From Candidatus Electrothrix rattekaaiensis (GTDB taxonomy: Bacteria; Desulfobacterota; Desulfobulbia; Desulfobulbales; Desulfobulbaceae), in assembly GCA_032595675.1 (NCBI GenBank), contig JAVQMD010000001.1:682001-746000 (forward strand): DNA of 64,000 nt, written 5' to 3'. The notes under the pieces were generated by a model. It saw only the letters and a list, made by a program, of their open reading frames with translations. It was not told where the DNA came from and did not search any database. The position numbers and the translations under genes are program-made. Shown here piece after piece: positions 1-15,135 of the stretch (position 1 is its first letter; each line of letters begins with the position of its first letter).

Positions 1-7
1 GTTGCTG

Positions 8-64
8 TAGGGCGAACCTCTGTGTTCGCCCTTTTTGTCGGGTAGACACGCAGGTCTGCCCCTA
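8..64. repeat. GTAGGGC-type palindromic intergenic repeat
   Basis: Two hairpin-like halves lie here. The first pairs gggcgaac with gttcgccc around a 6-base loop. The second runs from gggtagacac to gtctgcccctac. The same style of element recurs at 2897-2977 and 14799-14828, always between genes. This looks like a dispersed palindromic repeat family; its mobility mechanism is unknown. Confidence 0.6.
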
Positions 65-398
65 CATATTTTGCGCTGCCCTTAGGCGGGTATTTGTTCA
101 AGTAATATAACGTAATGAGTGCTTGAAAAAAGTCAAGATGGTATGAACTGTTCTGATTGAATAATCCTTCAATCGCAATCATGTTGTGTATAATATCGCG
201 AAGGATGCCTTGGGCAAAGTGAAAATTGAAAAAAGAGGGGAAAGAAGTAATATCTTGGGGGCAGTATCGACCTTGCGGAATCCTGTTCTTTTTTGTACTC
301 TTCTGCTGGTCTTTTTCTTATTTCCGTCAACAGAGAACTACGAGGTTGTATAACCTTTGCGATCTCCTCTCGTTTCAATCTGCTGGGAGCAAATAACT
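65..398. other. Leader region without a recognised gene
   Basis: I see no convincing coding frame in this stretch ahead of the EACC1-like gene. A short reverse-strand open frame (169-378) has low-complexity composition and no recognisable motif. The promoter for the EACC1-caspase pair presumably lies here, but no clear -35/-10 pair could be assigned. Confidence 0.4.
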
Positions 399-785
399 AT
401 GGATGCAAAACTCACCCTGCACCACGATGAAATATCTGAAGAAGACATTCAGGAACTGGTCTTTTCGCTCACCCGGAGCTTGAATCAGAAAACGGATGTG
501 ACAGCGAGCTTACCTGAACAAGCAGGAGGCCTTGGGACCAAGGGAGATGCTGTCACCATCGGAGATATTTTCATTGCCGCCCTGAGTTCCGGGACAGTTG
601 TGGCCCTCTTGCAGGTGCTGAAATCCTATGTTGAGCGAAAACCGACCCTGCGCATTGAAGTAGAGACCCTGGACGGCAACAAGGTTAAAATTGAGGCTGA
701 GCATCTCAGTCCGGGGCAGATAGAACAGACCACCCGAGCGGTGCAGCAGCTCTGCGAGCACAGCGGCAATGTCGGTAATGGCTGA
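399..785 (+). CDS. EACC1-like effector-associated component
   Basis: A 128-residue protein starting at MDAKLTLHHDE; an upstream in-frame ATG at 357 would add 14 residues with no family support. After an acidic N-terminal strand and helix comes a small hydrophobic segment (GDIFIAALSSGTVVALLQVL), then a beta-rich tail (LRIEVETLDGNKVKIEAEHLS). This layout matches the effector-associated constant component 1 (EACC1) family, small proteins encoded directly before caspase, trypsin or other effector genes in bacterial conflict systems. The stop overlaps the start of the downstream caspase gene, so translational coupling is likely. Family membership is from recognition of the pattern; its molecular role is not established. 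Confidence 0.65.
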   Translation: MDAKLTLHHDEISEEDIQELVFSLTRSLNQKTDVTASLPEQAGGLGTKGDAVTIGDIFIAALSSGTVVALLQVLKSYVERKPTLRIEVETLDGNKVKIEAEHLSPGQIEQTTRAVQQLCEHSGNVGNG

Positions 786-2265
786 ACAGGCCGAAGTGAC
801 TGAAAAACGCTATGCAATTCTTATTGCCAGCAGCTGCTACCCGAAAGAGCCGGGTCTGAAGGATCTGCGTTGCCCGGAGAATGATGTTGATGCGCTGGAT
901 GCCGTGTTGCGCTCGCCTGATTTCGGCGGATTCACCAAGACCTTTGTTTTCAAGAACCGGCCCAACCATGAGGTGCTGGAACGGATTGAGACCGTGCTGG
1001 GCGAGGCAGGTCAGCACGATCTGGTGCTCATCTATTTTTCTGGACACGGTAAGCTGAATCCGGCAGGACAGCTCTGTCTTGCCACGGCAAATACTAAGCT
1101 GCGGGCCTTGGGTTCCACCTCCATTCAGGCCGCAGAGATTAAATCTTATTTTGGTCATTCCGCGAGCAGGAAAAAGATTCTCCTGCTGGACTGCTGCTAC
1201 AGCGGGGCTGTGGGTAAAGATTTTGCCAGGGGGGGCGTTGACGATCAGTTGCAGCTCGTGTCCCGAGGGCAGGGCACCTTTATCATGACTGCGTCTACCG
1301 GCATTGAGGTGGCAGTGGAAAAGGAGGGCGATCAATACGGCCTGTTCACCAAGCATCTTGTGCAGGGGATTCGTTCCGGCGAGGCGGATAAGAACGAGGA
1401 TGGCTTTGTGGATATGCAGGAGCTGTATGAGTATGTCCATGAGAAGGTGCGGGGGGAAGGGGCGCAAAAGCCCATGCAATGGGGGCTTGGTGTCAAAGGC
1501 AGCATAATTATTGCCAGGAGCGGCAGGATTGCGAAAGAGAAGTGGCGACAGGAGATGGAGCGGGGCCTGCATCGCTTTGCCGCAGACGGGTTGTTGACCA
1601 GCAGGCTTGTCAATGAAGCAATACAAGTCCTGAATATCCCAAAGAAGAAACTGGTCGGCAGCGAGCAACAACGTATTGTCCTGATTGAGCAGCTCATAGA
1701 CAGCAGGCTCGGCATGGCTGATTTCATGGAACAGTGGATGGACTTGCGCTGTCTTGACTGTGCAGCGGTAGCGCAGAAAAGCTCAACAATCAAGTGTGAA
1801 TCAGCAGAGCGATATATTGGGAGGCGATATATTAATCATGGCGATGGCACGATAACGGACACGAAAACCGGTTTGATATGGAAACGCTGTTTAGAAGGTT
1901 TGTCCGGTGGTAACTGCGAAGAGGGAAAGGTGGAAACCTATACGTGGGATGTTGCCGTGAAGCGTTTCAAGAATGTTACCTACGCAGGCTTTACTGATTG
2001 GCGGCTGCCGACCATTGATGAGCTGAAAACCTTGGTGTATTGCAGCGAGGGAAAAGATAAAGAGGGCAGATGCAAGGATGGTTCTGAAAAACCGACGATC
2101 AACCAGCAGGCTTTTCCAAATATTGAGGCATTACGTGTCTGGTCCGGGTCGCCGAATGCTGACGGCTCGGGCTACGCGTGGTACGTCTATTTCGGCAACG
2201 GCTTTTCCTACGCCCTCAGCCGCAGCAACTTCAGTGCGGTGCGGCTGGTGCGCGACGGACAGTGA
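769..2265 (+). CDS. Caspase-family protease with C-terminal Lcl/DUF1566 (CLec-like) domain
   Basis: A 498-residue protein. Residues about 13-245 form a caspase/peptidase C14 domain with the catalytic His in FSGHGK (about H93) and the catalytic Cys in LLDCCYSG (about C143), so the protease dyad is intact. Residues about 260-335 are a helical linker. Residues about 345-495 form an Lcl/DUF1566 domain (GDGTITDTKTGLIWKRC, then FTDWRLPTIDEL and a final VRLVR), a C-type-lectin-like fold. The start overlaps the upstream EACC1-like gene; ATG 769 or ATG 778 are both possible. The tail has features of a DGR variable region (see 2131-2262). The likely role is a conflict effector in which the lectin-like domain senses a ligand and the caspase cuts a target. 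The function is inferred. Confidence 0.85.
   Translation: MSVMAEQAEVTEKRYAILIASSCYPKEPGLKDLRCPENDVDALDAVLRSPDFGGFTKTFVFKNRPNHEVLERIETVLGEAGQHDLVLIYFSGHGKLNPAGQLCLATANTKLRALGSTSIQAAEIKSYFGHSASRKKILLLDCCYSGAVGKDFARGGVDDQLQLVSRGQGTFIMTASTGIEVAVEKEGDQYGLFTKHLVQGIRSGEADKNEDGFVDMQELYEYVHEKVRGEGAQKPMQWGLGVKGSIIIARSGRIAKEKWRQEMERGLHRFAADGLLTSRLVNEAIQVLNIPKKKLVGSEQQRIVLIEQLIDSRLGMADFMEQWMDLRCLDCAAVAQKSSTIKCESAERYIGRRYINHGDGTITDTKTGLIWKRCLEGLSGGNCEEGKVETYTWDVAVKRFKNVTYAGFTDWRLPTIDELKTLVYCSEGKDKEGRCKDGSEKPTINQQAFPNIEALRVWSGSPNADGSGYAWYVYFGNGFSYALSRSNFSAVRLVRDGQ
2131..2262 (+). other. Candidate DGR variable region in the caspase-Lcl gene
   Basis: In the last 44 codons, constant framework codons (TGG, GCG TGG, GTC, TTC, CGC, then GCG GTG CGG CTG GTG CGC) alternate with 18 codons that all end in C or T: GAC, GGC, TAC, TAT, TTT, TCC, GCC, CTC, AGC, AGT and similar. 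Each of these can be derived from AAC or AAT by changing only A. This is the hallmark of adenine-specific mutagenic homing, and Lcl/DUF1566 tails are known DGR targets. The final GC-rich codons followed by a T-rich stretch after the stop could be the initiation-of-homing region. No template repeat or reverse transcriptase is in the window. Confidence 0.55.
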
Positions 2266-2367
2266 TTTTGTTTTTTTGTCTTTTTTCCCCGAGTAGCTGC
2301 TGGGCAGGCAGATGGATGCGCAGAGAAAAAAGAGAACGGCCTGTGTTTTTCCTGTTGCGCAGCCTGG

Positions 2368-2535
2368 AAAAATGACGAAACAGGAGAGCAAAACCACAAA
2401 GGAGTGGTGAAAAACGGCCAAACAGCCCGAAAAAATGACAGAGCGGCACGGTAAAATCATACAGAAGCGCGGAAAAATGGCCGAGGAGCAGTGAAAACCC
2501 ATGCAGGAGCACGGAAAAATCATCAAGGAGCACTA
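2368..2535. repeat. Eight degenerate tandem units of exactly 21 bp
   Basis: Eight consecutive units can be laid out with no length change. They start at 2368, 2389, 2410, 2431, 2452, 2473, 2494 and 2515. Most begin with four or five A and later carry a GGAGCA-like core. The sequence drifts strongly while the 21-bp period is exact. Read as codons the units give a K-N-x-x-x-A-R-like heptad with one TAA in unit five, so the array may be a dead coding repeat or a non-coding minisatellite. It lies between the caspase gene and the Rpn array. Confidence 0.7.
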
Positions 2536-2662
2536 CTTTGTTATTTTTCCGGCCTCTGCGTGATGCTGCGATAGGTACGGACCATTCTGCATCAGGGAAG
2601 AACGACTTTTTTCTGGCCAATGACGATAAAAAATCTGTGCAGTGTCATAATTGGCAAGTTTA

Positions 2663-2746
2663 GAAGAGTGCTGCAACGCCGAAGAATCGTTCCTCAATAG
2701 ATGAGAACGGTTCAGCAGCGTTGACGAATAATCCTGCGATAGGTCC
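2663..2746. repeat. Four degenerate 21-bp units, second family
   Basis: Units beginning GAA start at 2663, 2684, 2705 and 2726. They resemble the 12-unit array at 14884-15135 (approximate consensus gaacgatcctgcaacggtgca) more than the A-rich array 130 bp upstream. The array abuts the dispersed element at 2761-2857, the same two repeat types that occur together near 14634-15135. Confidence 0.55.
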
Positions 2747-2760
2747 AGAACGACTCAGGT

Positions 2761-2857
2761 TGCCCGCCGTTAAAACAGCAGGCTATTTTCTGCCGTCCCT
2801 TGGGGACTCTTGTCCCGGAGGGACATTCGATCATAGCCCAGTGATTTATCGCTGGGG
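2761..2857. repeat. Dispersed 97-bp REP-like element, copy 1
   Basis: This stretch is nearly identical to 14634-14730. It contains a hairpin formed by the gtccct and agggac segments, a conserved cattcgatcatagcccagtg block, and an agcccag/ctggg inverted pair at the end. Both copies lie downstream of conflict-type genes. Such elements are usually mobilised by RAYT-like transposases; none is visible here. Confidence 0.65.
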
Positions 2858-2896
2858 AGGGATAACCCTTTCAGGGTATGAGATTCTCGGATTTGT

Positions 2897-2977
2897 AGTA
2901 GGGCGCAGACCTCTGTGTCTGCCCTCCTTCATTATCCACGATAAAAGTCCGGGCGCACACACAGGTGCGCCCCTACA
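2897..2977. repeat. GTAGGGC-type palindromic repeats, two hairpins
   Basis: Two adjacent hairpins of the same family as 8-64: one pairs cagac with gtctg inside gggcg...gccc, the other pairs gggcgcac with gtgcgccc. They lie just upstream of the first Rpn gene. No other feature is seen between 2266 and 3049 apart from these repeats and the two arrays. Confidence 0.6.
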
Positions 2978-3049
2978 AACCAGCTCAGGGTAATACCCTG
3001 GGCACGCAACACATTCATGCCGTTTCCATCAGGAACGAGGAATAAAACA

Positions 3050-3988
3050 ATGAAAGTCGCAAACCCCCTCTACGATGTCGTGTTCAAATACCTGATGCAG
3101 GATATGCGAGTTGCCAAACTGGTCATATCAAACATTATTGAACAGGAGATAGAATCCCTTGATTTCGCCTTTACCGAGTTGAACAGAAAACTTCCTGACG
3201 GCGGCCTGACCGTATTGCGAATTGATTTCGCAGCAAAAATACGGGAGCCGGACGGCAGCAGCAGGCTGGTTATCATTGAGTTGCAGAAGGCTAAATTTCC
3301 CACTGATATAACTCGGTTTCGTAAATATCTCGGCAAACAGTATCAGGAAGAGTCCAATATCCATCTGGATGAGAAGACGCAGAAGAAGAAGGCGTTGCCC
3401 ATTATAAGTATTTATATACTCGGGCATAATCTCCAGCATAATGACAGCCCAGTTATCCATGTGAAAAGAGATTATTACGATCATGCCACCAAGGAGAAAC
3501 TGACCCGGAAAGAAGAATTCATAGAAAGTCTGACCCACGACAGTTATATCATTCAAGTGAGGAGGTTGCGGAGAAAACATCGCAATAAGCTGGAAACACT
3601 GTTGAGTATTTTTGATCAAAGCAATACCAGTAAAGAGAGTAAACATTTTCTTGATGTATTGGAATCCTCGTTTCCAGATGAATTTAAGGTCATCATCAGA
3701 CGGCTGCACAAGGCGTCTGCCAGTAAAGAACTTTGTGAAGATATGAATATGGAGGATGAGATTTTAGAAGAATTAGCGACTCAGGAGCGGCTTATAGCGT
3801 ACGAAAGGGCGGAAAAAGAGAAAGCGGAAGCGGAAAAAAGGAAAGCAGAAGAGGGAAAAGAAAAGGCAGAAGCGGAAAAAAGGAAAGCAGAAGAGGGAAA
3901 AGAAAAGGCAGAAGCGGAAAAAGAGAGAGTTGAAGCGGAAAAAGCTAGGCTTGAAAAACTCTTGAAACAAGCAGGTATTGATTTTTAA
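3050..3988 (+). CDS. Rpn-type PD-(D/E)XK nuclease/transposase-family protein, copy 1
   Basis: A 312-residue protein of the Rpn/PDDEXK_2 family (recombination-promoting nuclease, also annotated as PD-(D/E)XK nuclease family transposase). The nuclease core is intact: D59 in LRIDFAAKI, then E77-x-Q79 in VIIELQKAK. Residues 1-240 are almost identical in four tandem copies. Residues about 255-312 form a charged coiled coil of EKAEAEK-like heptads that ends KLLKQAGIDF. The start is MKVANPLYD, preceded by gaggaa at good spacing; an upstream in-frame ATG at 3017 is not shared by the other copies. Known members promote RecA-independent recombination; the role of this copy is unknown. Confidence 0.85.
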   Translation: MKVANPLYDVVFKYLMQDMRVAKLVISNIIEQEIESLDFAFTELNRKLPDGGLTVLRIDFAAKIREPDGSSRLVIIELQKAKFPTDITRFRKYLGKQYQEESNIHLDEKTQKKKALPIISIYILGHNLQHNDSPVIHVKRDYYDHATKEKLTRKEEFIESLTHDSYIIQVRRLRRKHRNKLETLLSIFDQSNTSKESKHFLDVLESSFPDEFKVIIRRLHKASASKELCEDMNMEDEILEELATQERLIAYERAEKEKAEAEKRKAEEGKEKAEAEKRKAEEGKEKAEAEKERVEAEKARLEKLLKQAGIDF

Positions 3989-4023
3989 GGTTACCGACTC
4001 CAATAGGTCCGAGGAATAAAACA

Positions 4024-4899
4024 ATGAAAGTCGCAAATCCCCTCTACGATGTCGTGTTCAAATACCTGATGCAGGATATGCGGGTTGCCAAGCTGGTCAT
4101 ATCAAACATTATTGAACAGGAGATAGAATCCCTTGATTTCGCCTTTACCGAGTTGAACAGAAAACTTCCTGACGGCGGCCTGACAGTATTGCGGATTGAT
4201 TTCGCAGCAAAAATACGGGATCCAGACGGCAGTAGCAGGCTGGTTATCATTGAGTTGCAGAAGGCTAAATTTCCCACTGATATCACTCGTTTTCGTAAAT
4301 ATCTCGGCAAACAGTATCAGGAAGAGTCCAATATCCATCTGGATGAGAAGACGCAGAAGAAGAAGGCGTTGCCCATCATAAGTATTTATATACTCGGGCA
4401 TAATCTCCAGCATAATGACAGCCCAGTTATCCATGTGAAAAGAGATTATTACGATCATGCCACCAAGGAGAAACTGACCCGGAAAGAGGAGTTCATAGAA
4501 AGTCTCACCCACGACAGTTATATCATCCAGGTACGGAGATTGCGCAGAAAACATCGTAATAAATTGGAAACACTGTTGAGTATCTTTGATCAGAGCAATG
4601 CCAGCAAAGAGAGTAAACATTTTCTTGATGTATTGGAATCTTCGTTTCCAGATGAATTCAAGGTTATCATCAGACGGCTGCACAAGGCTTCCGCCAGCAA
4701 AGAACTTTGTGAAGATATGGAAATGGAAGATGAGATTTTAGAAGAATTAGCGACTCAGGAGCGGCTCATAGCTTACGAAAGGGCGGAAAGAAGGAAAGCA
4801 GAAGAGGGAAAAGAGAAAGCGGAGGTGGAAAAAGAGAAAGCCGAGGCGGAAAAAGCCAGGCTTGAAAAACTCTTGAAACAAGCCGGTATTGATTTTTAA
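4024..4899 (+). CDS. Rpn-type PD-(D/E)XK nuclease, copy 2
   Basis: A 291-residue paralogue of the preceding gene, 35 bp downstream. The spacer (ggttaccgactccaa...) and ribosome binding site (gaggaa) are almost the same as those between copies 2 and 3. The nuclease residues D59, E77 and Q79 are kept. This copy has the shortest coiled-coil tail and is the only one with an ERAERRKAEEG start to the tail and EVEKEK inside it. Copies 1-3 look like one transcription unit that arose by tandem duplication, followed by loss or gain of whole heptads. Confidence 0.83.
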   Translation: MKVANPLYDVVFKYLMQDMRVAKLVISNIIEQEIESLDFAFTELNRKLPDGGLTVLRIDFAAKIRDPDGSSRLVIIELQKAKFPTDITRFRKYLGKQYQEESNIHLDEKTQKKKALPIISIYILGHNLQHNDSPVIHVKRDYYDHATKEKLTRKEEFIESLTHDSYIIQVRRLRRKHRNKLETLLSIFDQSNASKESKHFLDVLESSFPDEFKVIIRRLHKASASKELCEDMEMEDEILEELATQERLIAYERAERRKAEEGKEKAEVEKEKAEAEKARLEKLLKQAGIDF

Positions 4900-4934
4900 G
4901 GTTACCGACTCCAACAGGTCCGAGGAATAAAACA

Positions 4935-5852
4935 ATGAAAGTAGCAAATCCCCTCTACGATGTCGTGTTCAAATATCTGATGCAGGATATGCGGGTTGCC
5001 AAACTGGTCATATCAAACATCATTGAACAGGAGATAGAATCCCTTGATTTCGCCTTTACCGAGTTGAACAGAAAACTTCCTGACGGCGGCCTGACAGTGT
5101 TGCGAATTGATTTTGCAGCAAAAATACGGGAACTAGATGGCAGCAGCAGGTTGGTTATCATTGAGTTGCAGAAGGCCAAATTCCCCACTGATATAACCCG
5201 GTTTCGTAAATATCTCGGCAAACAGTATCAGGAAGAGTCCAATATCCACCTGGATGAAAAAACCGGAAAGAAGAAGGCACTGCCCATTATAAGTATTTAC
5301 ATTCTCGGGCATAATCTCCAGCATAATGACAGCCCAGTTATCCATGTGAAAAGAGATTATTACGATCATGCCACCAAGGAGAAACTGACCCGGAAAGAAG
5401 AATTTATAGAAAGTCTGACCCACGACAGCTATATCATTCAAGTGAGGAGGTTGCGTAAAAAACATCGCAATAAGCTGGAAACACTGTTGAGTATTTTTGA
5501 TCAGAGCAATGCCAGCAAAGAGAGTAAACATTTTCTTGATGTATTGGAATCTTCGTTTCCAGATGAATTCAAGGTCATCATCAGACGGCTGCACAAGGCG
5601 TCTGCCAGCAAAGAACTTTGTGAAGATATGAATATGGAAGATGAGATTTTAGAGGAGTTAGCGACTCAGGAGCGGCTCATAGCTTACGAAAGGGCGGAAA
5701 AAGAGAAAGCGGAAGCGGAAAAAGAGAAAGCAGAAGCGGAAAAAGAGAAAGCAGAAGAGGGAAAAGAAAAAGCAGAAGCGGAAAAAGAGAGAGTTGAAGC
5801 GGAAAAAGCTAGGCTTGAAAAACTCTTGAAACAAGCAGGTATTGATTTTTAA
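4935..5852 (+). CDS. Rpn-type PD-(D/E)XK nuclease, copy 3
   Basis: A 305-residue paralogue with the same nuclease core (D59, E77, Q79), 35 bp after copy 2. Small differences (REL for REP at about residue 67, DEKTGKK for DEKTQKK, RLRKKH for RLRRKH) show divergence since duplication. The tail has three EKAE-type heptads before the shared EKERVEAEKARLEK end. The longer spacer after this gene (148 bp to copy 4) suggests it is the last gene of the first three-copy unit. Confidence 0.83.
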   Translation: MKVANPLYDVVFKYLMQDMRVAKLVISNIIEQEIESLDFAFTELNRKLPDGGLTVLRIDFAAKIRELDGSSRLVIIELQKAKFPTDITRFRKYLGKQYQEESNIHLDEKTGKKKALPIISIYILGHNLQHNDSPVIHVKRDYYDHATKEKLTRKEEFIESLTHDSYIIQVRRLRKKHRNKLETLLSIFDQSNASKESKHFLDVLESSFPDEFKVIIRRLHKASASKELCEDMNMEDEILEELATQERLIAYERAEKEKAEAEKEKAEAEKEKAEEGKEKAEAEKERVEAEKARLEKLLKQAGIDF

Positions 5853-6000
5853 GGTTACCGACGCAAGCCGGTTTTTTGATGCTGAGGCGCATCCTACTGA
5901 GCTGTTTTTGCCCCAACGCGGCGTGTTAACCAGCTCAGAATAACACCATAAACCATGCCATCTGACGTTACCTTCTCCATCAAACCCGAGGAATAAAACA

Positions 6001-6897
6001 ATGAAAGTCGCAAATCCCCTCTACGATGTCGTGTTCAAATATCTGATGCAGGATATGCGAGTTGCCAAACTGGTCATATCAAACATCATTGAACAGGAGA
6101 TAGAATCCCTTGATTTCGCCTTTACCGAGTTGAACAGAAAACTTCCTGACGGCGACCTGACAGTGTTGCGGATTGATTTTGCAGCAAAAATACGGGAGCC
6201 GGACGGCAGCAGCAGGCTGGTCATCATTGAATTGCAAAAGGCTAAATTCCCCACGGATATAACTCGGTTTCGTAAATATCTCGGCAAACAGTATCAGGAA
6301 GAATCCAATATCCATCTGGATGAGAAAACGCGGAAAAAGAAGGCGTTACCCATTATAAGTATTTATATACTCGGGCATAATCTCCAGCATAATGACAGCC
6401 CAGTTATCCATGTGAAAAGAGATTATTACGATCATGCCACCAAGGAGAAACTGACCCGGAAAGAGGAGTTCATAGAAAGCCTCACCCACGACAGTTATAT
6501 CATCCAGGTACGGAGATTGCGTAAAAAACATCGCAATAAGCTGGAAACATTGTTGAGTATTTTTGATCAAAGCAATACCAGTAAAGAGAGTAAACATTTT
6601 CTTGATGTATTGGAATCCTCGTTTCCAGATGAATTTAAGGTCATCATCAGACGGCTGCACAAGGCTTCTGCCAGTAAAGAACTTTGTGAAGATATGGAAA
6701 TGGAAGATGAGATTTTAGAGGAATTAGCGACTCAGGAGCGGCTCATAGCTTACGAAAGGGCGGAAAAAGAGAAAGCAGAAGCGGAAAAAAGGAAAGCAGA
6801 AGAGGGAAAAGAAAAGGCAGAAGCGGAAAAAGAGAGAGTTGAAGCGGAAAAAGCTAGGCTTGAAAAACTCTTGAAACAAGCAGGTATTGCGTTTTAA
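6001..6897 (+). CDS. Rpn-type PD-(D/E)XK nuclease, copy 4
   Basis: A 298-residue paralogue with the conserved D59, E77 and Q79. It differs by GDL for GGL at about residue 52 and by AGIAF instead of AGIDF at the C terminus. Its upstream region (aaccagctcag... ending cgaggaataaaaca) resembles the region before copy 1 rather than the short spacers before copies 2 and 3. It may therefore have its own promoter and may derive from a duplication that included the copy 1 leader. Confidence 0.83.
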   Translation: MKVANPLYDVVFKYLMQDMRVAKLVISNIIEQEIESLDFAFTELNRKLPDGDLTVLRIDFAAKIREPDGSSRLVIIELQKAKFPTDITRFRKYLGKQYQEESNIHLDEKTRKKKALPIISIYILGHNLQHNDSPVIHVKRDYYDHATKEKLTRKEEFIESLTHDSYIIQVRRLRKKHRNKLETLLSIFDQSNTSKESKHFLDVLESSFPDEFKVIIRRLHKASASKELCEDMEMEDEILEELATQERLIAYERAEKEKAEAEKRKAEEGKEKAEAEKERVEAEKARLEKLLKQAGIAF

Positions 6898-7021
6898 GGT
6901 GACCAATTTAAGCCGGGATAACATGCAGCTGGAGTCCTTCGTTCTGTATACACCCAGACAGACCGGCAATATCTTCTTTCTTCGTTTTTCAAAAAAATAA
7001 TAAAATAAACAGCTCTTACAC

Positions 7022-10000
7022 ATGCCCATGCAATGGATCACACGACTGCACCGAATCGAACATGCCGGAATGCCGGTATACATTGATCAGGAAAAACCGG
7101 ACTGGTTTGTCCCCTCCACGCGCACTGATGAACTGCTCAGGGCCTGTCAAAAGTACGGCAACCGGGCTGTGGCTCTGGGTGAGTTCTGTAACCGTTGCAA
7201 CGAAGAACCGGATAAGGCGGGACGCCATCTTCGTCGCTTAGAGCATCTTCTGGATCAAGGGACACCGCCGCCCTACCAGGGCCGCAGTCACCATCTGCGT
7301 CTCGGCCCTTTGAAAGAGATCTGGTTTCATATCACAGATACCTGCAATCTTTCCTGTGTCCATTGCCTTTTTTCCGCCTCTCCGAGCAAAAAGGAAAGCA
7401 TGGAGCAGGAACGCCTTCATGATGCCATTGATCAGGCCACCGCGCTGGGCAGTCATCTTTTTTATTTCACCGGTGGCGAACCCTTTGTGTATCCTGATTT
7501 TTGCCAGACGATTGAATATGTCCTGCAAAAGGATCCGGCCCATCATGTGGCGATCCTGACTAATGGCCTGCTTCTTGAGGAGCATCTTGCCGAACTGATG
7601 GAGATGGACCATGAGCGGATTCATCTCCAAGTCAGTTTGGACGGTTTAAAGGAGGAACACGATTTTCTTCGGGGACGTAACACCTATAGCAGGCTTTGCG
7701 AAAATCTTGAGGCCGCTGTAAAGACGGGATTGGCCTTCACCATTTCAGTGGCTGTGAACAACGATAATGTAGGGCGGCTGGATAAAATCGCTCGTCAGGC
7801 TCATGCCTTGGGGGCAGGCGGTCTCCATCTGATGTATCATTTTGTCCGGGGCAAGGGGACAAGCGGTCAGTTTGTCCCGGTGGTTCGCCTGTTCTCTCAG
7901 ATTGTCAAGGCAGCTGAGGTCTGTCAGGAGTTGGGGCTGAAGATCGATAATCTGGAGGCCATGAAGGCTCAGGTCTTTGCTGTGCCCGGTTCCCGTTTTG
8001 ATCTGACCAATATGGCCTGGGAATCCTTGGCCGTAGCCCCGGATGGAACGCTTTCTCCTTCTCCGGCCTTGGTACGGGTGGAGGAACTTGCCTGCGGGCA
8101 TCTGGAGCAGGGGCTGGCCGATGCCTGGAAAGATAACATCGTGCTCAGGGAGATTCGTTTGATCAGCCAAGTAGATATCGAGGAACGGCAGCAACGCCCC
8201 TTGTCTCTCATTACTGGTGGAGGTGACCCGGATCATTCCTGGAACACCGGTTGTAACTTAGTGGGGCATGATCCCTATATTGACCTGTACGAGCAGCTGG
8301 CCTTGCAGCTTATTACGGATCAGGCGGCTCAATATCCTGATCAGGGCCTGTTTCGCTTGCGGATGGGCGATGTGCGCCATGATTGCCCGGACACGGAAAA
8401 CGGCTCTGACGGCTCGGTCGGACTCACCCATTGCAATTGTCTGATTTCCCTGGCTGAGCATGACGGCCATTCCTCGGTGCGGGAGTTTTACAGTGCTGCT
8501 GCCCAGCAGGCCAACACGGAGATTGTTAATCCCTTTAGCCCGGCTGCGGGACTGGGGGATTATATTCCTGAAGAGGCCAAAGAAAAATCCTACGGTTGCG
8601 GAAGTCCGGTCAAAGATGCTGCGCCTCAAAAGGGTGAAATTGTGGTGGACCTAGGCTCGGGCAGCGGGGTGGAGTGCTTTCTTGCAGCAGCAGAGGTCGG
8701 GGCTTCCGGCAGGGTATATGGTATTGATATGACCGATGCCATGCTGGAACTGGCTTGCAAATCAAAGCGGCATGTGGTGATGGACCTGGGCTATGATAAT
8801 ATCGAGTTCCGCAAAGGGTATCTGGAGGCAATTCCCTTGGCCGATGCAACAGCGGACGTGGTGATCTCCAACTGCGTGATCAATCTCAGCCCGGATAAGC
8901 GCAGAACCTATCTGGAGATCATGCGGATACTCAAGCCCGGCGGTCGGCTGGTGGTTGCTGATGTGGTTAGCGACGAATCGGTCAGCGCGGCGATCAAGAA
9001 CAGCACCAAGTATCGGGGCGAATGCCTGGGCGGGGCCATGCAGCAGGACGATCTTCTTGTCATGCTGGAGGATTGCGGATTTGCCTCGGTCTATCTTCAT
9101 AAACGCTCTCCCTATCGGGAGGTGGACGGGCATCGTTTTTACTCCCTGACCTATGAGGCGGGCAAAGCAGAAGTGACGGAATTGACGGGACTGGAGGAAC
9201 TTGTTGATGAGGAAGGGGAGAAGGTTCGTTGTCTCTTTCGAGGGCCTGCGCCAGCTCTGGAAACATCAACGGGCCGACGTTTGGAATGCGGGCGCATCAC
9301 CGAACTTCCGCGTCGGGAAGCAGAGCAGCTGGGTGATCAGGTTTTCATCCTTGATGAGGAAGGAGCTGTTGCCAATATTGAGCAGGAAGCCTGCTGTTGC
9401 GGTGTGCCGCCGGACGAGGGCAGAGGCAATGATTCAAGTAATTCCAAAAACGATTCTGTTGCTCGGCATCTCAACGGCTGTCTTGTTTGCGGGGAGGAGC
9501 TGGTCTATCAAAGTAACAGCGGTGTGTCTGCAAGTTGCTATTTTTGCGGCACAGAGACTGTTACCCCATGCAGCTGCACTGCTGACCATTATGTCTGTGA
9601 CAGTTGCCATCAACAGGAAGGCGTTGCGGTCGTCCGTTCAGTCTGCCTGAGCAGCAGGGAAAAGGATATGATTACCTTGATGACTCGCATCCGCAATCAT
9701 CCTGCTGTCCCCATGCACGGGCCTGAGCATCATGCGCTGGTGCCCGGCGTGATCCTGGCTGCCTATCGCAATAACGGCGGGAAGATCAGCAAGGATCTTA
9801 TTGCCACCGGGATTGATCGGGGCAGCAAGGTGCCCGGAGGGGTCTGCGGCTTTTGGGGCTGCTGTGGTGCGGCAGTGGGGGCGGGGATTGCCGCTTCTCT
9901 GATCCTGGAGGCGACCCCGTTGAAAGCGGATGAACGCCAGCACACCTTGGCCTTTACCGCAGCACTTTTTAAGGAGATTGCCCGAATAAAGGGGGGGCGG

Positions 10001-14828: not shown

Positions 14829-14883
14829 AAACATTGATGCCGGAGGCCTCATCAGTATCGAATCATCATCCTGCGGCATGTCA

Positions 14884-15135
14884 GAACGATGCTGCAACGC
14901 TGTAGAGCCTTCCTGCACCGTTGACGAATGATGCAAAGACACATAAGAACGACCCTGCGACGGTGCAGAATGATCCTGTGGAAGCTACGAACGTTCCGGT
15001 ACCGATGACGGAAGCCTCGTCACCATCGCAGAACGATCCTGCAACAGGGGATAGTCTTGCGTCACAAGGGGATAACCCTTCGTACATAGGGGATAGTGAT
15101 GATCCCCTTGGGGATTGCCTTGCGTCACCAGGAGA
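14884..15135. repeat. Twelve degenerate tandem units of exactly 21 bp
   Basis: Twelve units can be written end to end without any gap, starting at 14884 and every 21 bp to 15115. Early units resemble gaacgatcctgcaacggtgca. The last four drift to a form ending in aggggA. Read in one frame the units give heptads such as NDPATVQ and SLASQGD with a single stop in unit one. It is related to the four-unit array at 2663-2746. The stretch 15136-15469 that follows shows no convincing gene; it presumably holds the promoter of the second NTPase gene. Confidence 0.7.

Follow-up and report, generated by a model that had tools for sequence, protein, structure and literature searches.

A strictly 21-bp tandem array behind a caspase gene of Candidatus Electrothrix rattekaaiensis represents a dispersed non-coding element in gene-less form

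How can a tandem array keep the length of its units exactly while their sequence drifts? The question is posed by eight A-rich units that follow a caspase gene in Candidatus Electrothrix rattekaaiensis, within the 64,000-nucleotide stretch of DNA analysed here (the window). An initial annotation, made from the sequence of this stretch, described eight degenerate units of strictly 21 bp and proposed either selection on spacing, as two helical turns or as seven codons, or rapid turnover of the units. The periodicity was confirmed (Table 1). Identity at a lag of 21 bp is 0.59, compared with 0.32 ± 0.04 in dinucleotide shuffles of the array; in this control, fixed beforehand as the test of the claim, comparable 21-bp periodicity appeared in 0 of 2000 shuffles, and the best of all lags from 10 to 42 was likewise unmatched by any of the 2000. 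Identity does not fall at lags of 42 and 63 bp (0.63 and 0.64), and the mean pairwise identity of the units is 60%. The frame read from 2368 contains, as described, one stop codon, TAA at 2452.

Table 1. Positions of the array and of the features that surround it in the window.
Feature	Positions	Strand	Remarks
EACC1 gene (PF19953)	399..785	+	context
Caspase gene, EACC1-associated type, with Lcl_C C-terminus	769..2265	+	NF047832, PF00656, PF07603
5′ module CGGCCTGTGTTTTTCCTGTTGCGCAGCCTGG	2337..2367	+	contains an inverted unit-like T-tract; common to eight W-type copies
Tandem array, eight units of 21 bp	2368..2535	+	contiguous, exact length
Last unit and inverted 3′ unit, imperfect hairpin/palindrome	2512..2551	+	part of the element
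Weaker 21-bp-periodic stretch	2557..2760	+	different consensus; 0/1000 shuffles
First of four tandem paralogous genes downstream of the array	3050..3988	+	set runs to 6897

The window array (W) begins 103 bp beyond the end of the caspase gene. Upstream of the 5′ module the DNA of the W-type copies mostly differs, arrays B and G1e sharing 14 bases and W and G4d about 30, and the start of the weaker periodic stretch, to a point between 2602 and 2691, is common downstream of W, B, G4a and G4d. Another non-coding-looking 21-bp-periodic stretch is found at 14860–15050 of the window (units like GCAGAACGATCCTGCAAC; 0/1000 shuffles); its consensus differs from that of the main array, and similar units occur at 2557–2760. 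Arrays of 21 bp may be more widespread in this genus. The four tandem paralogues, which we take to be Rpn-like, carry at their 3′ ends 21-bp repeats that are coding and rich in K, A and E; these have the period of the non-coding array but run in frame. Neither of the first two has a Pfam match, and the first has none in NCBIfam. A search of window positions 1–9000 against Rfam returned only Acido-Lenti-1, on both strands at 2763–2856, outside the array and just under the gathering score.

Further arrays were sought by DNA search and with two sequence models derived from the arrays, R1 (three units) and R2 (four units). The genome of the window holds at least ten array loci, that is, nine besides that of the window, and one further borderline model match (E 0.008). 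Among 57 related genomes, strong matches were obtained in six of the eight of the same genus (G000, G001, G002, G004, G006 and G007), and G016 and G026, which are two of the three genomes searched from one other genus of the family, have one array each; weaker matches turned up in other genomes. In a search of 84,980 species genomes, a collection that may omit records very near the genome of the window, a two-unit pattern matched solely ‘Desulfobulbaceae bacterium isolate S24.Bin023’. The element is attributed to one genus of the Desulfobulbaceae, with two genomes of another genus in addition. The 48 arrays collected, many of them orthologous or of shared descent and thus non-independent, fall into the subfamilies W, D, F and L, all of which fit a shared 21-column consensus of roughly G-R-R-A-A-A-A-Y-S-R-Y-N-C-W-G-N-A-G-C-R-G; the consensus of W and D units is [AC]AAAA[TC][GC]AYNNAG[GC]AGCASGG. 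With a crude gene caller, 44 of the 48 overlap no gene, and the other four overlap weak or fused calls. The internal module number varies among these intergenic copies, while the ends are common. The window array is a W-subfamily copy of this dispersed non-coding element, one that has no gene attached.

Unit spacing was followed with a chain that allowed 19–23 bp and penalized departures from 21. Of 345 unit steps in the 48 arrays, 314 are of 21 bp, 27 of 20 bp, most of which occupy a single constant position in the D and L arrays, and four of 42 bp, each a skipped weak unit; steps of 19, 22 or 23 bp are absent. In 17 related array pairs (2659 aligned bases, 285 substitutions), the gaps comprise 12 of 21, 42 or 63 bp and one of 20 bp, equal in length to a 20-bp unit present in that array. 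The homologous flanks of the same pairs, taken where they had less than 25% mismatches and at least 50 aligned bases, contain 15 gaps and 275 substitutions in 3176 bases. Gaps that are not multiples of 21 are thus rarer in arrays than in flanks (Fisher p 4e-4), in a comparison in which the downstream flanks include coding DNA and the repeats can draw the aligner to 21-bp gaps. The D/G1c pair, which consists of copies at different loci rather than orthologues, was kept in this test and left out of the column test below. Some copies may have recombined, since W also resembles G4d over 1823–2602, although pairs were matched by locus. The uniform steps and the depletion of small gaps relative to the flanks indicate that array spacing is conserved, which supports the proposed selection on spacing. 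Slippage can explain the whole-unit gaps, but not the scarcity of small ones.

Constraint on sequence was assessed by ranking conserved columns from the other subfamilies and counting mismatches; here, as in the unit-matching and synonymous comparisons, unit pairs under 70% identity were excluded. Gene-less W copies have 26/280 mismatches in conserved columns versus 51/280 (p 0.003), and D arrays linked to a gene (described below) have 7/120 versus 18/120 (p 0.03). There is a trend in the L subfamily, both in gene-less copies (28/350 versus 42/350, p 0.1) and in gene-linked arrays (12/120 versus 20/120, p 0.18), and no constraint in F in the columns of the other subfamilies (15/190 versus 13/190). 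When columns were ranked by W alone, the gene-linked arrays are strongly constrained (6/180 versus 35/180), and the gene-less L and F copies are not (21/220 versus 25/220 and 15/190 versus 17/190). The comparison of W with D, in which the D-G1c copies were counted, gave 5/180 versus 31/180 and 21/280 versus 56/280.

The gene in question encodes a protein of ~215–220 residues, and seven arrays, in two subfamilies, lie 74–76 bp upstream of it. It is present in 5 of the 57 genomes as seven copies, each with an array upstream; the six copies free of an N stretch match the NCBIfam family NF052641, ‘PQLLE family protein’ (about 1e-60, best 1e-61). In these two subfamilies, the complete element of phased 21-bp units and an inverted last unit is the upstream region of the PQLLE gene. 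A profile search of 395 genomes sampled from the phylum found the gene in one, that of the window. The protein has no convincing match in Pfam, PHROGs or the PDB (one copy was also run through PADLOC), and no mention of the PQLLE name was found in the literature searched. A single-sequence model of 171 of 219 residues is all-helical, at low confidence (mean pLDDT 55).

Several copies of the complete unit are found in different surroundings. Similarity among the four D units (E, G1b, G4b and G4c) extends from about −340 to the stop codon; their outer flanks largely differ, except that E and G4b are alike out to −507 and that G1b and G4c share a region further downstream. Complete units occur in at least four settings, and the unrelated outer flanks suggest that the units are mobile. 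Moreover, similarity over the unit reaches 86% between G26 and G1x, which come from different genera, a hint of transfer. As to the origin of such units, plasmids and phages were rejected: neither the array nor the PQLLE protein matched a plasmid or phage, the two-unit pattern occurs in 0 viral contigs, and one viral match to PQLLE (29% over 61 residues) lies within a 625-aa ORF read as an unrelated ATPase.

Arrays also persist apart from the gene. No PQLLE gene was found in the array-bearing genomes G002, G006 and G007. The gene-less L arrays retain part or all of the PQLLE leader, and two of them (L096 and L181) retain the first 28 PQLLE codons at 93–96% identity, so that these arrays look like decayed PQLLE units. 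At the window array and its seven W-type relatives, tblastn (E to 0.05) detected neither the gene nor a remnant; the kinship of the W subfamily with the gene-linked arrays therefore rests on the resemblance of the arrays. Judged by its sequence, the window array fits the 21-bp array with an inverted last unit, but not the complete PQLLE unit.

The alternative of rapid turnover fails for the window array, whose units correspond one to one with those of arrays B (95%) and C (80%) in the same genome; this correspondence indicates that the units are old and move as a block. W, G4a (in G004) and G1e (in G001) lie downstream of closely similar caspase genes (86–88% over the first kilobase), and the intergenic similarity of W and G1e is confined to −31 to +15 around the array. 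In G001, alignment at the B locus places the array without the caspase-EACC1 genes or the neighbouring ORF that flank it in G000; the array edges there (L009 and L084) coincide with two gene gains or losses. The C array is missing in four relatives (a count that leaves out G002 and G005), the adjoining genes being 71–84 bp apart in the matches versus 848 bp in G000; in G001 there is no array match before gppA. For the D array, no counterpart was found beside hpt in six relatives. The contrasts at these loci indicate that blocks were gained, or flanking genes exchanged, at the block edges. Elsewhere, two short-array copies (L183, 2413–2516, and L191, 2025–2128) run into the end of a toxin-like ORF, presumably a PIN-like toxin of the DUF3368 type.

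It had also been suggested that such arrays might cluster near conflict genes. A conflict-type gene adjoins 8 of 10 array loci in the genome of the window, compared with 6 of 17 random gaps in the same genome (3 of 20 random regions, which lacked a gap of 250 bases, were dropped), with a one-sided hypergeometric probability of 0.03, calculated by hand. The neighbours of the arrays comprise caspase-EACC1 (two, the B-locus caspase being judged by similarity to the gene in the window), a PDDEXK_2 remnant, HicB, type I restriction, AbiEii, SLFN-AlbA and GmrSD; those of the random gaps are Trypco1, PIN/Fic (twice), DUF4411, YoeB/ParE and Unstab_antitox. The excess is as expected from the suggestion, but the labels were assigned after the data had been seen and the genome is rich in such genes, so that the clustering is suggestive only.

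Which property of the DNA the spacing serves was considered in terms of peptide, helix and RNA. The proposal of seven codons did not hold: the open frame pointed out initially has no synonymous excess, and stops interrupt 35 of the 48 arrays. That the array encodes a heptad-repeat peptide on either strand is hardly credible; one minus-strand frame is stop-free in 39 of 48 arrays and has a slight synonymous excess (attained, in the four groups, by 8, 3, 24 and 51 of 200 null runs), but the unit composition can account for its openness, a plus frame with 69 stops shows an excess of comparable size in three of these groups (14, 63, 8 and 8 of 200), and the conserved 20-bp steps would shift a coding frame. 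Two helical turns are consistent with the wedge model, in which the predicted bend of the window array, 174 degrees, ranks third among 63,833 segments of 168 bp, which average about 45, and drops to 64 or 71 degrees at unit lengths of 20 or 22 bp. All eight W-type arrays are predicted to bend beyond their shuffles (z 3.0–4.1; at most 1 of 200 shuffles reach the value), and D and F arrays are moderately bent. However, most L arrays, the gene-linked ones included, are not clearly bent, so that bending is not the common denominator of the arrays. Intrinsic curvature alone, with the array bound by general nucleoid proteins, would account for the bend of the W-type arrays and its loss on altered spacing; it is nevertheless very improbable, given the unbent L arrays, the conservation of the AG-AGC columns as well, and the dependence of the bend on the wedge parameters used. 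As for RNA, the inverted unit follows the last unit in W, D and most L arrays. In 33 of 48 array ends, selected for having an inverted end (of the remainder, 13 end differently or lack such an end, and two that have it, L181, a duplicate of another row, and L195, were not counted), 77.9% of hairpin cells are paired. These ends are palindromic, with few independent compensations. The array could function as RNA, as the leader of the PQLLE mRNA or, when gene-less, as 3′-untranslated RNA with a 3′ hairpin, although this is improbable. A promoter-like TGGACA-17-TATTCT precedes the array of unit E (1 found, 0.3 expected), so the array may fall inside a transcript, and similar promoter-like bases occur in the other three D units; 34 of 47 arrays, which are not independent cases, share the strand of the gene upstream, and the fold z is −2.5. 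Hairpin cells changed on both sides number 58, versus 30.7 in shuffles (0/500). Counted as pairs, however, the changes on both sides number 8 versus 7.2 (196/500 shuffles reach this) and the pair types 23 versus 22.4 (231/500), and the double changes thus reflect few events, mainly between subfamilies. Moreover, G-T and A-C oppositions are equal (50 versus 52 cells), which gives no strand preference of the kind that would tell an RNA strand from a DNA palindrome, and the minus strand folds equally well (z −2.8).

Each unit contains two conserved blocks, an A-tract and, about 11 bp later, AG-AGC. From these blocks, the fixed two-turn spacing and the inverted end we infer protein sites on one face of the helix. 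The array can tentatively be read, with slightly less than an even chance, as a phased multi-site protein platform within a dispersed non-coding element that has mobile PQLLE units. Each 21-bp unit would be one putative protein site, possibly for the PQLLE protein, with protein occupying adjacent sites along the same helix face; a spacing of 21 bp, as two turns, would keep these sites in phase, and unit sequence would drift while length does not because the phase of the sites is what matters. In the W subfamily, phased A-tracts would add strong predicted curvature. Gene-less copies, including that in the window, keep the array and would act as stand-alone binding or bending sites. A fuller scenario, speculative and in our estimate unlikely, is that a mobile PQLLE gene seeded the stand-alone arrays and that the encoded or another protein polymerises along the helix face, in an organising or regulatory system that selects for spacing and persists after the gene is lost. 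A functionless dispersed repeat of BOX or MITE type, grown by old tandem duplications and kept in register by whole-unit slippage, is rather unlikely but has an appreciable chance: arrays differ by whole units, the 20-bp steps are inherited at constant positions, gene-less L and F copies show little or no column constraint, and many L copies have damaged or cut gene starts, as decaying copies do. Against it stand the depletion of small indels relative to flanks of similar substitution load and the column constraint in W and in gene-linked D arrays, with columns taken from other subfamilies.

Sequence is the usual basis for grouping dispersed repeats; in at least four subfamilies here, unit length is kept while sequence drifts, a pattern that the further 21-bp consensus in the same window perhaps follows. 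This makes selection on helical phase testable in non-coding DNA and points to a candidate cis-element of the uncharacterised PQLLE protein family. The decay of gene-carrying units into stand-alone arrays also becomes readable.

The array was compared with several known classes of repeat. A CRISPR array is excluded by contiguous units that are only 60% alike, rather than near-identical repeats with unique spacers. A link to diversity-generating retroelements (DGRs), suggested by the Lcl_C end of the caspase, was rejected, since no DGR-type reverse transcriptase was found in the genome of the window (96% complete); of its only two RVT_1 matches, we take one to be of group II intron type and the other, an ORF of 1841 aa near a contig end (G000:C2:284-5809, L103), to be a fusion of a primase-like part with a reverse transcriptase. 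MITE-type termini, TGCGCAGCCTGGAAAAATGAC versus GTTATTTTTCCGGCCTGCGCA, were composed by eye from several copies; other copies, among them that of the window, lack them or have them altered. For a target-site duplication, the flanks of the empty site at C are not alignable, and no transposase common to the copies was seen. Among the literature matches listed, no title concerns such arrays, and where PMC10580974, on cable bacteria, treats repeats, these are repeats in proteins.

The arrays resemble the REPINs of IS200-like (RAYT) transposases in that dispersed palindromic repeats occur in the same genomes, and an IS200-like gene lies beside the array in G1e and G4d. An origin from them was rejected, because the array is tandem and the transposase gene is accompanied by REP-type repeats of a different sequence (AATGCCCCAACGGGGCTG..., for which the name REPIN is our own reading). 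The transposase gene and REPIN-type repeats lie beside an array in two relatives, at L085 2730–3793 and L093 2300–3160, and one REP half ends, by eye, at the start of the array element in G1e and in array B. Iterons and multi-site transposon ends have direct sites of about 19–22 bp in helical phase with an inverted site at one end. The arrays share these phased direct sites and the inverted site at one end, but they are dispersed, and no common replication gene or transposase was seen among the copies. The nearest analogue found is the BOX element of Streptococcus pneumoniae, organised, as outlined in PMC3049150, as boxA-(boxB)n-boxC. To judge from that outline of their organisation, the two are alike in being dispersed, intergenic and modular, with distinct ends around a variable number of modules; BOX elements likewise have predicted stem-loops and are thought to be mobile. 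Compared with BOX as described there, the modules of the present element are 21 bp long, strongly diverged within an array and fixed in length, and two of its array subfamilies precede one specific gene.
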